From Roseobacter fucihabitans (lineage in GTDB: Bacteria; Pseudomonadota; Alphaproteobacteria; Rhodobacterales; Rhodobacteraceae), in contig NZ_CP143423.1 in the NCBI RefSeq assembly GCF_014337925.2, positions 3,812,501 through 3,876,500 of the forward strand: a stretch of 64,000 nt of DNA, given 5' to 3'. Each line of letters begins with the position of its first letter. The first letter of the stretch is position 1. Positions 18,239 through 29,295 of the stretch are shown one piece after another. A program made the translations under genes and the position numbers. Under the pieces are notes generated by a model, which was given only the letters and a program-made list of their open reading frames with translations, had not been told where the DNA came from and did no database searches.

Positions 18239-18544
18239 ATGCGACAGAGTTGTTTTACCGAGGCCCGGATTATCGGGATGATCAAAGAACAGGAAGCTGG
18301 GATGCCGACGGCAGAGGTGTGTCGCAGACATGGTCTGAGCCAATGCATCGTTCTGCAAATTCAAAGCAAAATACGGCGGCATGCGTTGCACGGCAGGGTA
18401 TCGCGCAGCGATGTCCCGAGGGTGAACGTTTCTGACACCCACCGCCTCAAATCGCTGGAGGACAAGAGCGCCAAGCTGAAGCGTCTTCTGGCGGACACGA
18501 TGCTCAACAACGTCATGTTGAAAGATTTGCTGGGAAAGAACTGA
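18239..18544 (+). pseudogene. IS3 OrfA pseudogene (copy 1)
   Basis: N-terminus MRQSCFTEARIIGMIKEQEA and HGLSQ, then the leucine-rich C-terminus KRLLADTMLNNVMLKDLLGK are standard IS3 OrfA. Between them the ancestral frame (ASFCKFKAKYGGM, then NVSDTHRLKSLE) is visible in another phase. A +1 change near 18345 and a 41-bp palindromic insert at 18384-18424 cancel out, so the frame stays open but carries about 29 foreign-reading residues. Confidence 0.85.
18384..18424 (-). repeat. Palindromic insert element, copy 2
   Basis: 41 bp in reverse orientation. Read on the minus strand it begins CACCCTCGGGACATCGCTGC, with core ATCGC-TGC-GCGAT, and ends CCTGCCGTGCAACG. It sits between the ATG of the GGM codons and the AACGTTTCTGAC of an IS3 orfA. 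The same insert is at the same place in IS3 copy 2 (29110-29150), so it predates duplication of that IS. Confidence 0.8.
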
Positions 18545-18565
18545 CGGTGAGCCATTGATGCGCCA

Positions 18566-18775
18566 TTGGTTCGAGCACGATGGCGAACGCATGTGCGACG
18601 GGCTGCGGCACGCAAGGCGATGGGAGATCATGATATCTCGCAACGTCGGGCGTGCAGGTTGGTTGGTGTCGATCCAAAAACTGTTCGACGTGATCATTCG
18701 CCGGACAAACCTGAAGTTCGCGAAGAGATGAAGGCGATTGCCAGCAAACGTCGGCGGTTTGGTTATCCGCTGATC
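18566..18775 (+). pseudogene. IS3 OrfB N-terminal fragment (copy 1)
   Basis: Reads RRAAARKAMGDHDISQRRAC, then VGVDPKTVRRDHSPDKPEVR and SKRRRFGY, the HTH_21-type start of IS3 OrfB. The DDE domain is absent: after about 18775 the same frame runs into IS21 IstA. This copy lacks the two 36-bp inserts present in copy 2 and therefore serves as the empty-site reference. Confidence 0.85.
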
Positions 18776-18990
18776 ACTTTCGAGCGCAACCGTTACAGCG
18801 TGCCTGCCAGCTTTGCGAACCGACCTGTCAGTCTTCGTGTTTACCCAGAACGATTGGTCATTGTGGCTCAAGGCCAAACCGTCTGCACACATGAGCGCAT
18901 CATTGACCGATCCCATCGCAAGCCAGGCAAAGTCATCTATGATTGGCGCCATTACCTCGCGGTCATCCAACGCAAACCGGGGGCCCTTCA

Positions 18991-19032
18991 CCCCTCTCGG
19001 CAGCATGCCTTGCATGCGCCTGCCGGGCAATG
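18991..19032 (+). repeat. Palindromic insert element, copy 3
   Basis: 42 bp: CCCCTCTCGGCA, core GCATGC-CTT-GCATGC, and CCTGCCGGGCAATG. It splits istA between PGAL and NGAPF, with a net gain of 41 bp by comparison with the reading frame on each side. Confidence 0.85.
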
Positions 19033-19058
19033 AATGGCGCGCCGTTTACAGAGATGCC

Positions 19059-19102
19059 CCCCTTTCGGCATCTTTTCCTGTGGAAAAGAGCCTGCCGGGC
19101 AC
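19059..19102 (+). repeat. Palindromic insert element, copy 4 (in frame)
   Basis: CCCCTTTCGGCAT, core CTTTTCC-TGT-GGAAAAG, and CCTGCCGGGCA. It lies between EMPP and DTFRRLQ of istA. The net gain is 42 bp, 14 extra residues, and the reading frame continues through it. Confidence 0.82.
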
Positions 19103-19325
19103 CGGATACCTTCCGCCGACTGCAAAACCACATGCTTCGTAAGGAGGGTGGTGACAGGGAAATGGTCGACATCCTGTCCTTGGTTTTACACCACGACGAA
19201 AGCGCCGTCCTGCGTGCAGTTGAGCTGGCGCTGGAAGCTGGGGTGCCGACGAAGACACATATCCTGAACCCGTTGCATAGACTGATCGATCCCAAGCAGA
19301 CAGATCACCCAGAGATCGATCCGCC

Positions 19326-19367
19326 CCCCTCTCGGCAGATTGCTTTGCAATCGCCTGTCGGGCAATG
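19326..19367 (+). repeat. Palindromic insert element, copy 5
   Basis: 42 bp: CCCCTCTCGGCAG, core ATTGC-TTT-GCAAT, and CGCCTGTCGGGCAATG. It interrupts istA after EIDPP, and the downstream istA sequence continues in another phase. Confidence 0.85.
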
Positions 19368-19503
19368 GATGCTCTTGCATTGGAAACCGCCCCAAAGGCA
19401 AATGTGGATCGCTATGACGACCTCAGACAGGCAGGAGGCAAGCGCAATGCGTCATGATCCTGCAGGAGCTTCCATTATCATCATGCTGCGCAGTCTCAAG
19501 CTG

Positions 19504-19550
19504 CGTCTCGCCAAAGGCGAGCATCTATAATTGCGCACCTTTGGTGCGAC
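19504..19550. repeat. Double-hairpin insert of a different type
   Basis: Two adjacent perfect hairpins, CTCGCC-AAA-GGCGAG and CGCACC-TTT-GGTGCG, separated by CATCTATAATTG. They stand between the MLRSLKL and MAHA codons of istB, where IstB homologues are continuous. The net gain is about 41 bp, similar to the palindromic elements, but the ends differ. No second copy was noticed in the window. Confidence 0.55.
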
Positions 19551-19561
19551 ATGGCGCATGC

Positions 19562-19602
19562 CCCCTTTCGTGCATTGCTGCGCAATACCCTGTCGGGCAG
19601 TG
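19562..19602 (+). repeat. Palindromic insert element, copy 6
   Basis: CCCCTTTCGTGC, core ATTGC-TG-CGCAAT, and ACCCTGTCGGGCAGTG. It lies in istB between the MAHA and VDGLV codons. Confidence 0.82.
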
Positions 19603-27626: not shown

Positions 27627-27879
27627 ACATAATTCTCCTTTTTCGCAGGCTAGATTGGCACAAAGAAACGAAGGTTGAATTAACGGGATCAATTCCGGTT
27701 GAGTGTGATTGGCCCGTAGAACAAACTGGATGTACAACGAAAGAGCCTGCCTGACGTCAACGCCTAGAACAGGATGAAATCACCGCAATTGAAGTCATCG
27801 ACAACTTGTTGTCTGAGGAATACAGCACCCGCGAGACGCGGCGGATCCATGTGGCCTTGCGCACGTCAAAACTCATGCC

Positions 27880-27921
27880 CCCCTCTCGCGACATCACTGC
27901 GTGATGCCCTGACGGGCAATG
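27880..27921 (+). repeat. Palindromic insert element, copy 11
   Basis: CCCCTCTCGCGA, core CATCAC-TG-CGTGATG, and CCCTGACGGGCAATG. It lies in the second istB between the RTSKL and IKTLESFDF codons. Confidence 0.84.
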
Positions 27922-27955
27922 ATCAAGACCTTGGAAAGCTTCGACTTCAGCTTCC

Positions 27956-27998
27956 CGTTGACCGGCAGGCGATGCATGCATCGCCGATAGGAGGCCAT
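27956..27998 (-). repeat. Palindromic insert element, copy 12 (reverse orientation)
   Basis: On the minus strand: CCTCCTATCGGC, core GATGC-AT-GCATC, and GCCTGCCGGTCAACG. It interrupts istB just after the FDFSF codons, only 35 bp from copy 11. Confidence 0.78.
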
Positions 27999-28254
27999 CG
28001 CTTGATCGCGAACGTATCGCAGCACTTGCCCAGTTAGACTTCATCCGGCGCGCTGAAGTTGTGCACTTCCTCGGGCCACCGGTTACCGGCAAAAGCCACC
28101 TTGCCACCGCGCTGGGTGGGGCGGCCGTCAAAGCGGGCATGCAGGTTTATCGTGCGACCCTCGCGGAGTTAGCTGAGGTTCTGGCGAAAGCGAAACGTCA
28201 GGGACAACTGGCTGAGAAGATCAGGTTCTACGCCAGATCATCACTGCTGATCGC

Positions 28255-28296
28255 CCCCTCTCGGCAGATTGCTTCGCAATCGCCTGCCGGCTAATA
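28255..28296 (+). repeat. Palindromic insert element, copy 13
   Basis: CCCCTCTCGGCAG, core ATTGC-TTC-GCAAT, and CGCCTGCCGGCTAATA. It lies in istB between the SSLLI and DEIDYL codons. The net gain is 41 bp, and a stop is created. Confidence 0.86.
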
Positions 28297-28758
28297 GACG
28301 AAATTGACTATCTGCACATCACCCAAGGCGGGGCGAACCTGTTCTTCCAACGCGTCAACGCCCGCTACGAAAAGGGCGCGATGATCCTCACGTCTAACCG
28401 GGGATTTTCTGAATGGGGTGACGTCTTCGGTGATCCAGTCTTGGGCACTGCACTTCTGGATCGATTGCTACACCACGCAGTCGTGGTGCAAATCGAAGGC
28501 GCAAGTTGTCGGCTACGCGGTCACTCCGATCTCATCCCGGAACACGCCCGCACCAACGCACCCATCACACCGCCGCCCACCGAAGAATGGAGCCCCAAGT
28601 TACTGAAAACAAATGACAACCGACCCCCGATAAACTGGGGAATTTTACTTTGCCCTAAGTGGGGAAATTTGAGCTGCCATTGACACACAATCCGGCGATA
28701 ACCAAACCGCCGACGTTTGCTGGCAATCGCCTATCTCTTCGCGAACTTCAGGTTTGTC

Positions 28759-28795
28759 CCCCTCTCGTGCATTTTCAATGCACTGCCGGGCAGTG
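28759..28795 (+). repeat. Palindromic insert element, copy 14 (36 bp net, in frame)
   Basis: CCCCTCTC, core GTGCATT-TTC-AATGCAC, and TGCCGGGCAGTG. The empty site is in IS3 copy 1 at about 18711 (CGCC/GGACAAACC); counted between shared flanks, the difference is exactly 36 bp. Confidence 0.92.
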
Positions 28796-28833
28796 GGCGG
28801 TTTGTCGCGCCGGATGGTCTTGGGGCCGACACC

Positions 28834-28870
28834 CGTTGGCGGGCAACACATGCTTGCATGTGTGAGAGGG
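28834..28870 (-). repeat. Palindromic insert element, copy 15 (36 bp net, in frame)
   Basis: On the minus strand: CCCTCTC, core ACACATGC-AA-GCATGTGT, and TGCCCGCCAACG. The empty site is in copy 1 at about 18667 (GGTTG/GTGTC). The net difference between shared flanks is exactly 36 bp. Confidence 0.92.
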
Positions 28871-28989
28871 ACAAGCCTGCACGCACGACGTTGCGAGATG
28901 TTATGATCTCCCATCGCCTTGCGTGCCGCAGCCCGTCGCACATGCGTTCGCCATCGTGCTCGAACCAATGGCGCATCAATGGCTCACCG

Positions 28990-29295
28990 TCAGTTCTTTC
29001 CCAGCAAATCTTTCAACATGACGTTGTTGAGCATCGTGTCCGCCAGAAGACGCTTCAGCTTGGCGCTCTTGTCCTCCAGCGATTTGAGGCGGTGGGTGTC
29101 AGAAATGTTCACCCTCGGGACATCGCTGCGCGATACCCTGCCGTGCAACGCATGCCGCCGTATTTTGCTTTGAATTTGCAGAACGATGCATTGGCTCAGA
29201 CCATGTCTGCGACACACCTCTGCCGTCGGCATCCCAGCTTCCTGTTCTTTGATCATCCCGATAATCCGGGCCTCGGTAAAACAACTCTGTCGCAT
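28990..29295 (-). pseudogene. IS3 OrfA pseudogene (copy 2)
   Basis: Nearly identical to the OrfA at 18239-18544 (one residue difference, VNI for VNV), including the same +1 change and the same 41-bp palindromic insert. The two IS copies therefore descend from one already damaged element. Confidence 0.87.
29110..29150 (+). repeat. Palindromic insert element, copy 16
   Basis: The same insert as 18384-18424, in the second IS3 copy: CACCCTCGGGAC, core ATCGC-TGC-GCGAT, then ACCCTGCCGTGCAACG. It is shared by descent. Confidence 0.82.

Follow-up and report, generated by a model that had tools for sequence, protein, structure and literature searches.

Fifteen hairpin-forming segments of about 40 nt interrupt transposase genes within a 64,000-nt stretch of Roseobacter fucihabitans DNA (contig NZ_CP143423.1, positions 3,812,501 to 3,876,500; hereafter the window). 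It was found that these segments belong to one family, which occupies at least 74 sites of this 4.85-Mb genome and is widespread in Rhodobacteraceae. I consider it fairly probable that they are very small, non-coding, non-autonomous mobile elements, which are moved in trans and are probably recognised as a folded DNA strand. That these micro-elements are non-autonomous is the best reading; as a sequence-only reading of the window had noted, no transposase of its own is visible, and none is encoded in a unit of 36-45 nt.

All fifteen segments proposed as one family are present, and they share an architecture: CCCTCTC at the left end, a self-complementary stem-loop of variable sequence, and then (C)TGCCGGGCAATG. 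The right end can be written as (C)TGCCGGGCA(A/G)TG, with CA(A/G)TG as the consensus terminus. The stem has about 7-11 bp; its arm sequences vary, complementarity is kept, and an unpaired A is retained in the 41-nt form. The copy at 9611 is indeed truncated (Table 1). The left end had been proposed as C(C)CCTCTC, but the extra leading C mostly comes from the flanking target, as 50 of 74 sites have C at −1. Small hairpins of 36-43 nt had been proposed, and the range is actually 36-45 nt. In the own genome, the insert is 41 nt long at 38 of the 74 sites and its length is not a multiple of three in 65 of the 74.

The genome matches the strict pattern CCCTCTC-N14..36-CTGCCGGGCAATG exactly at 45 places and its reversal at 0; for CTGCCGGGCARTG, the counts are 96 and 0. 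On these counts, together with the covariation test described below, chance palindromes were rejected. A covariance model (CM) built from 13 copies gave 208 matches in 310,860 bases, consisting of the window and stretches fetched around hits, that is, chosen DNA. It recovers 13 of the 15 window copies at E ≤ 0.05, and the two weakest, at 27956 and 28834 on the minus strand, were detected by a script scan alone. The script scan, run on the fetched stretches of the genome, gave 232 matches, against 10 in the reversed sequence. Seven clusters (21 of the 232 matches) were removed by eye, one of which overlaps a genuine, oppositely oriented IS630 insert, leaving 211 copies at 74 sites. Five additional copies, two of them at new sites, were found later and stand outside the 74-site statistics. 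Since the genome searches score limited numbers of candidates, their counts are lower bounds. The many further copies expected from the window therefore exist elsewhere in the genome. A phage collection had no match to one 41-nt copy, and a phage origin was rejected. A known RNA family was rejected on a null result from Rfam (0 matches in window positions 17500-30000 and in seven loci). No description of this hairpin family was recognised in openly licensed PubMed Central articles; the available part of PMC13386836 contains neither "palindrom" nor "hairpin".

In 13 aligned 41-nt copies, two-sided changes occur at 7 of 9 inner stem pairs and 95.5% of the cells pair, these being the same 13 copies that defined the structure. 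The covariation score of these copies was reached by 0 of 500 shuffles, and the number of further pair types by 46 of 500. A set of 103 distinct 41-nt copies has 1236 pair cells, of which 1156 are Watson-Crick, 20 are G-T, and 60 are unpaired, a paired share that is inflated by the selection of these copies with a pairing-scoring scanner. G-T pairs were expected at 37.8 cells from independent columns, against the 20 observed. Position 11 is A in 97 of the 103 copies. It appears that the fold counts for more than the sequence of the stem.

Do the inserts lie cleanly in genes that exist without them? Uninterrupted counterparts were found for 46 of the 74 own sites and for 55 of 81 foreign sites, with a median identity of 80% for the best ones. 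The searches for uninterrupted counterparts, host copies, and same-site inserts were confined to fetched stretches. The foreign set comprises the 81 exact inserts held by the first 80 of at least 120 stretches from a pattern scan of 84,980 species genomes. No indel lies within 6 nt of the join at 37 of the 46 own and 43 of the 55 foreign sites, that is, at 80 of the 101 sites with a counterpart. Because these joins have no extra bases, there is no target duplication. The empty sites expected in homologous IS (insertion sequence) genes were thus seen, and the idea that the segments are a normal part of intact IS genes was rejected on the uninterrupted counterparts and mostly clean joins. The own IS1182 was compared with a partial uninterrupted copy of the same genome (first site) and with four homologues in other genomes; the comparison fixes the insert ends exactly for the first site and to one base for the second, and nothing is duplicated. 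Motifs and domains assigned by eye from the sequence are called apparent here and below. At one IS3 site of genome G012, one base has apparently been lost at the join.

The elements insert at T-N3-C^GATG, which may lie on either gene strand, and the orientation of the insert is fixed relative to the target. The flank counts (n = 74) are 40 for T at −5 and 50 for C at −1, followed by G (54), A (49), T (43), and G (50). Scored leave-one-out against positions within 400 nt on both strands, 33 of the 74 real positions rank within the best 1% and 51 within the best 5%. At the 58 antisense sites, the GATG frequencies are 0.78, 0.74, 0.64, and 0.71; since inserts antisense to the frame have a similar preference, it is a preference at the DNA level. 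Orientation relative to the frame is the same at 32 and opposite at 28 of the 60 sites with a frame of at least 120 aa. An Asp codon directly follows the join at 26 of 41 sense phase-0 sites, against a 6% background, because the target contains GAT. Many of these Asp residues are apparent catalytic or Walker B residues (IS66, IS5, IS630, IS1182, and IstB). Unlike inserts lie at the same nucleotide of homologous genes, for example at VIL^DELG of IstB and LR^DE of IS3. Thus, insertion at these positions was repeated and independent.

The recognised hosts, mostly frameshifted by the insert, are genes of mobile elements, namely IS3, IS21, IS5, IS66, IS200, IS256, IS630, and IS1182, and a phage-type integrase. 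IS110 would be a ninth host IS family, with a weak match only (DEDD_Tnp_IS110, one of several matches below the cut-off). The IS3 and IS21 hosts proposed from the window are therefore part of a wider range of at least eight IS families. In Pfam, 28 of 60 unmodified insert-adjacent pieces match transposase or recombinase families, and one more matches only helix-turn-helix families. With NCBIfam and a further Pfam run, 40 of the 74 sites are covered, 31 of them above the Pfam cut-off. The domains matched are IstB_IS21, rve, rve_3, HTH_21, HTH_Tnp_1, DUF772 (IS1182), DDE_Tnp_IS66, DUF4096 and DDE_Tnp_1 (IS5), Y1_Tnp, Transposase_mut (IS256), DDE_3 (IS630), and Phage_int_SAM_4. The remaining sites, except 15031 and 2696552, were placed by protein similarity, by the same IS, or by reading. 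Other domain matches near the inserts are generic AAA or helix-turn-helix matches or are weak (e.g., ShK, TPR_5, and DUF6026), and many insert-adjacent pieces have no domain match. In the foreign set, 51 of the 81 inserts have a neighbourhood similar to own-genome hosts. Foreign adjacent pieces (78 matching) gave 27 families, and the best 25 of these are transposase, integrase, or helix-turn-helix families with two kinds of exception, each from a single piece. One is an amidase match below threshold (L194); the other consists of type IV coupling-protein families (L223), the insert there lying at the edge of the coupling-protein frame. In the domain and similarity searches of adjacent pieces, no housekeeping or cellular host was recognised among the sites.

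Two host genes deserve a separate remark. A Y1 (IS200-like) transposase gene with an insert exists in three copies (L052, L053, and L054, at C1:436966, 3626453, and 3701035), and another Y1 gene of the same genome (L149) has no insert at the corresponding position. In an IS1182-like transposase gene of G012 (L142:1236-1822), the insert ends in GTG, which could serve as a start codon for the downstream half of the gene, being in frame with it.

That the inserts are concentrated in mobile genes may reflect dispensability, true targeting, or both. Insertion could be unselective, with copies surviving only in dispensable mobile genes, an account that competes with targeting and not with the element itself. 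I regard it as quite plausible, if not yet probable; positions that score no lower than the median real site are common (1900 in the window, both strands). In the window, however, the IS remnants hold 15 copies in 3,960 bases, and 0 were found in about 5,044 bases outside open reading frames (ORFs) by rough gene calls. Under equal openness, this split has a probability of about 4e-6 if the copies are independent. Thus, either the inserts are steered to mobile DNA or those that land elsewhere are removed with great efficiency. A bolder version of targeting, which I entertain only tentatively and think rather unlikely, is that the hairpins are hyperparasites of about 40 nt whose machinery is truly directed at mobile-element genes (for example, at incoming single-stranded mobile DNA), and that they home to catalytic-Asp codons and spread inside carrier ISs. 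It is highly improbable that the genome itself silences transposase genes by writing hairpins into them. Hosts spanning unrelated recombinase families and the excess of Asp after the join would suit such a device, but the GAT in the target accounts for the Asp bias, a 19-copy IS3 relative in the same genome seems insert-free from alignment lengths, and no machinery for writing such hairpins is known.

The IS graveyards described for the window do contain IS remnants, but some insert-bearing IS units occur in up to eight identical copies. The own IS1182 has six near-full copies carrying both inserts and a partial one, with no empty copy at close identity. The own IS630 units and an own IS3 unit (both ends present in five copies, plus partial ones) are also uniformly filled. 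In G012, none of the eight copies of an IS3 and none of the four copies of an IS1182-like element is empty. The 19 listed copies of the IS3 relative mentioned above (G000:C1:592789-593154, C4:6031-6396, and 17 others) belong to an element 67% identical to the insert-bearing one; judged by alignment lengths only, it is 41 bases shorter over the stretch holding one site, as if insert-free.

Some carriers have lost internal sequence. In the own IS3 unit with both ends (L022:466-1750; copies L023, L024, L026, and L027), the last insert joins DNAA to YAFERK, and a deletion with the insert at its joint has removed the apparent catalytic-E region. This deletion probably arose by recombination between two inserts. 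An IS630 derivative shortened between two inserts exists in seven copies (L074, L084, L086-L088, L038, and L137), and one IS21 copy has an insert at an apparent deletion joint. The inserts may act as short homologies that produce units resembling miniature inverted-repeat transposable elements (MITEs). Units expected to lack a working transposase still multiply, which is like ordinary movement in trans.

Since the multi-copy carriers have no empty copies, another explanation first looked strong: the inserts may be skipped in expression, by ribosome bypass or RNA removal, so that carrier transposases work at a low level, as with the mobile bypassing elements (byps) of yeast mitochondria. Once both inserts were removed in a script, the own IS1182 frame was open and otherwise undamaged. 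Compared with uninterrupted homologues, it has a codon-position ratio of 0.16-0.27, like the 0.20-0.26 of these homologues among themselves. The low ratio may, however, merely reflect recent insertion, and the second insert-bearing IS1182 (L032) has a ratio of 0.53-0.60, at higher divergence. Two diverged IS630 lineages have three inserts in common, with common oddities; the inserts differ at 10 of 123 positions, less than the flanks (20, 17, and 41% at codon positions 1, 2, and 3), which would suit a function in expression, but both lineages carry frameshifts beyond the inserts. Orientation is irrelevant, as the counts of 32 and 28 indicate, lengths and phases vary, units without the catalytic region multiply as well, and none of the recognised hosts is a cellular gene. 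Skipping is therefore very improbable as an explanation of the family.

Several observations, besides the inflated paired share, weigh against small mobile elements moved in trans. No longer relative of the element was found in the own genome: of eight right-end matches beyond the first stretches, five are further inserts and three showed no longer relative. In the searched multi-copy carrier families, no uninterrupted close copy was found in the same genome, so that the trans source is not in sight. The low divergence of the IS630 inserts is not explained by neutral inheritance; it could result from re-insertion at fixed sites, from conversion, or from constraint. No mobilising enzyme was found in a search limited to Y1 transposases, and Y1_Tnp does not track the element, being present in 6 of 24 carrier genomes and in 7 of 35 non-carriers. 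On these counts, an IS200-like mobiliser was rejected as a requirement.

I nevertheless favour mobile elements moved in trans. The element is inserted whole, in a fixed orientation to a T-N3-C^GATG-like target and without target duplication, and its movement may be pictured as follows. An enzyme supplied in trans would recognise the fold of one DNA strand and not the sequence of the stem. Joining would proceed without staggered cuts, through an HUH-type or a folded-strand tyrosine-recombinase mechanism. Most insert-bearing transposases would be dead and their carriers moved in trans, and recombination between inserts would generate the deletions in carrier ISs. The specific proposal that a tyrosine recombinase acts on folded single strands, as integron integrases do on attC hairpins, is unlikely, although the covarying arms, the fixed unpaired base, and the duplication-free insertion resemble attC features; no attC-like core was seen by eye at the ends, and no search for integrases was made. 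If the family does consist of mobile elements, it would represent a bacterial mobile unit of very small size that combines clean insertion, a defined target, a mainly structural identity, and mobile genes as hosts. It would offer a system for finding its mobilising enzyme, and hairpin inserts would explain frameshifted transposase genes in Roseobacters. It would also raise the testable question of whether mobile elements are controlled by other mobile elements.

The family extends beyond R. fucihabitans. In a search of 59 genomes with strict filters, 24 match at E ≤ 0.001, and all of them belong to the taxonomic family of R. fucihabitans (24 of 35, the window's genome included), with 0 of 24 outside it; carriers G006, G008, and G015 rest on single matches with E from 3e-4 to 8e-4. 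Copies in related Rhodobacteraceae, which had been expected, are thus common. Among the matches listed from the pattern scan, most are by title Rhodobacteraceae or other alphaproteobacteria, including Labrenzia (two contigs) and Cohaesibacter; the outliers are a Planctomicrobium metagenome-assembled genome and two loci of the gammaproteobacterium Vreelandella neptunia (L165 and L220). The insert at L220:314 lies between LLI and DSTGIK of an apparent IS5-type gene, and this site is also filled in Thioclava (L224) and Jannaschia (L234). It is likely that the V. neptunia copy was transferred together with its IS. The family also matches 74 plasmid records, and the plasmid search counted 43 records of Pseudosulfitobacter. 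Of the 60 plasmid matches listed, none lies under an annotated gene, one of them being in a record without annotation and the plasmid gene table omitting pseudogenes.

The copies and hosts within the window are collected in Table 1. The site at 18384 is one of six filled genome copies of the same site, 29110 being another, and the listed flank copies that span it carry the insert. At the site of 20108, L051 holds a different insert at the same position. In the IS3 orfA remnant at 18239-18544, an apparent upstream shift of one base and the 41-nt insert seem jointly to keep the frame open through the insert. Between the two IS remnants, at 20865-24887, lies a 1340-aa ORF that appears to encode a repetitive calcium-binding surface or secreted protein.

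Table 1. Hairpin inserts and their host genes in the window (positions are those of the window; CM, covariance model score)
Feature	Positions	Strand	Evidence
Truncated insert: hairpin and right end, without CCCTCTC	9611..9641	+	Pattern matches
Host: IS3-type orfA/orfB remnant, right limit approximate	18172..18745	+	Multi-copy homology
Insert with degenerate left end in IS3 orfA remnant	18384..18424	-	CM 44.8 bits; cluster of 6
Host: 3' part of IS21 istA, with istB; three other places hold parts of it	18771..20465	+	IstB_IS21 domain on unmodified piece; copies
Insert in IS21 istA 3' part	18992..19032	+	CM 63.3 bits; uninterrupted homologue L109
45-nt insert in istA	19060..19104	+	CM 32.1 bits; uninterrupted homologue L109
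Insert in istA	19327..19367	+	CM 67.4 bits; uninterrupted homologue L109
Insert near istA/istB boundary	19563..19602	+	CM 37.4 bits; uninterrupted homologue L109
Antisense insert upstream of istB Walker A motif	19825..19865	-	CM 63.6 bits; uninterrupted homologue L051
Insert in istB	20027..20067	+	CM 48.1 bits; uninterrupted homologue L109
37-nt insert between VIL and DELG of istB	20108..20144	+	CM 29.6 bits; uninterrupted homologue L109
42-nt insert in istB between FG and DAK	20280..20321	+	CM 36.8 bits; uninterrupted homologue L211
Host: second IS21 istB	27755..28680	+	IstB_IS21 domain, E 2.5e-26, on 28297-28680
Insert in second istB	27881..27921	+	CM 59.5 bits
Degenerate insert in second istB	27956..27992	-	Script scan only
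Insert in second istB before DEIDYL	28256..28296	+	CM 60.5 bits
36-nt insert in IS3 orfB remnant	28760..28795	+	CM 37.2 bits; uninterrupted homologue elsewhere in window
Degenerate insert in IS3 orfB remnant	28834..28870	-	Script scan; uninterrupted window homologue, 1 indel at join
Insert in IS3 orfA remnant; site shared with 18384	29110..29150	+	CM 44.8 bits

How does the family compare with known systems? The ends of IS200/IS605 elements combine a hairpin, a short fixed target, and insertion without duplication, and all three are seen here. In contrast, the present hairpin element encodes no gene and is not associated with Y1 transposases, although a distant or lost enzyme is possible. The attC sites have paired arms, an unpaired base, and insertion without duplication. 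The byps of yeast mitochondria are likewise short hairpin inserts interrupting reading frames, whereas the present inserts occur in both orientations, with no sign of bypass discernible from sequence and no cellular host recognised.

A further comparison is with repetitive extragenic palindromic sequences (REPs). According to PMC3733652, the REPs of the GTAG and CGTC super-families are single palindromes of 20-40 bp with a high copy number, some copies lying inside genes; the CGTC type predominates in alphaproteobacteria and has no known transposase. The present family could thus be REPs moved by an IS200-like REP-associated tyrosine transposase (RAYT), given the same size class, the single hairpin, the high copy number, and the lack of target duplication. 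This is nevertheless improbable. Of 228 distinct copies, none has a terminal GTAG and 1 has a terminal CGTC. The link to Y1 (RAYT) genes that marks the GTAG type is not borne out by the carrier counts above, and carriers such as G016 (27 element matches) and G031 (24) have no Y1 match. In addition, the inserts are intragenic and not mainly extragenic, as the 40 of 74 sites with a transposase or recombinase match on the adjacent piece show, and they have the T-N3-C^GATG target.

The likeness to Rickettsia palindromic elements (RPEs) that had been suggested for the window is limited to palindromic, many-copy, intragenic insertion. In PMC10969869, RPEs are described as about 150 bp long and inserted in frame in metabolic genes. 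The present inserts are 36-45 nt long, lie in mobile-element genes, and are mostly out of frame, 65 of the 74 lengths being indivisible by three. MITEs, for which PMC10969869 gives a lower size of 50 bp, are similarly non-autonomous, but the present units are under 50 bp, their ends share only CCC/GGG (3 bp), they have no direct repeats, and they are not intergenic. In summary, this family is a small palindromic element that resembles REPs and IS200 ends in its working and is distinct from REPs, RPEs, and MITEs in the tested features.

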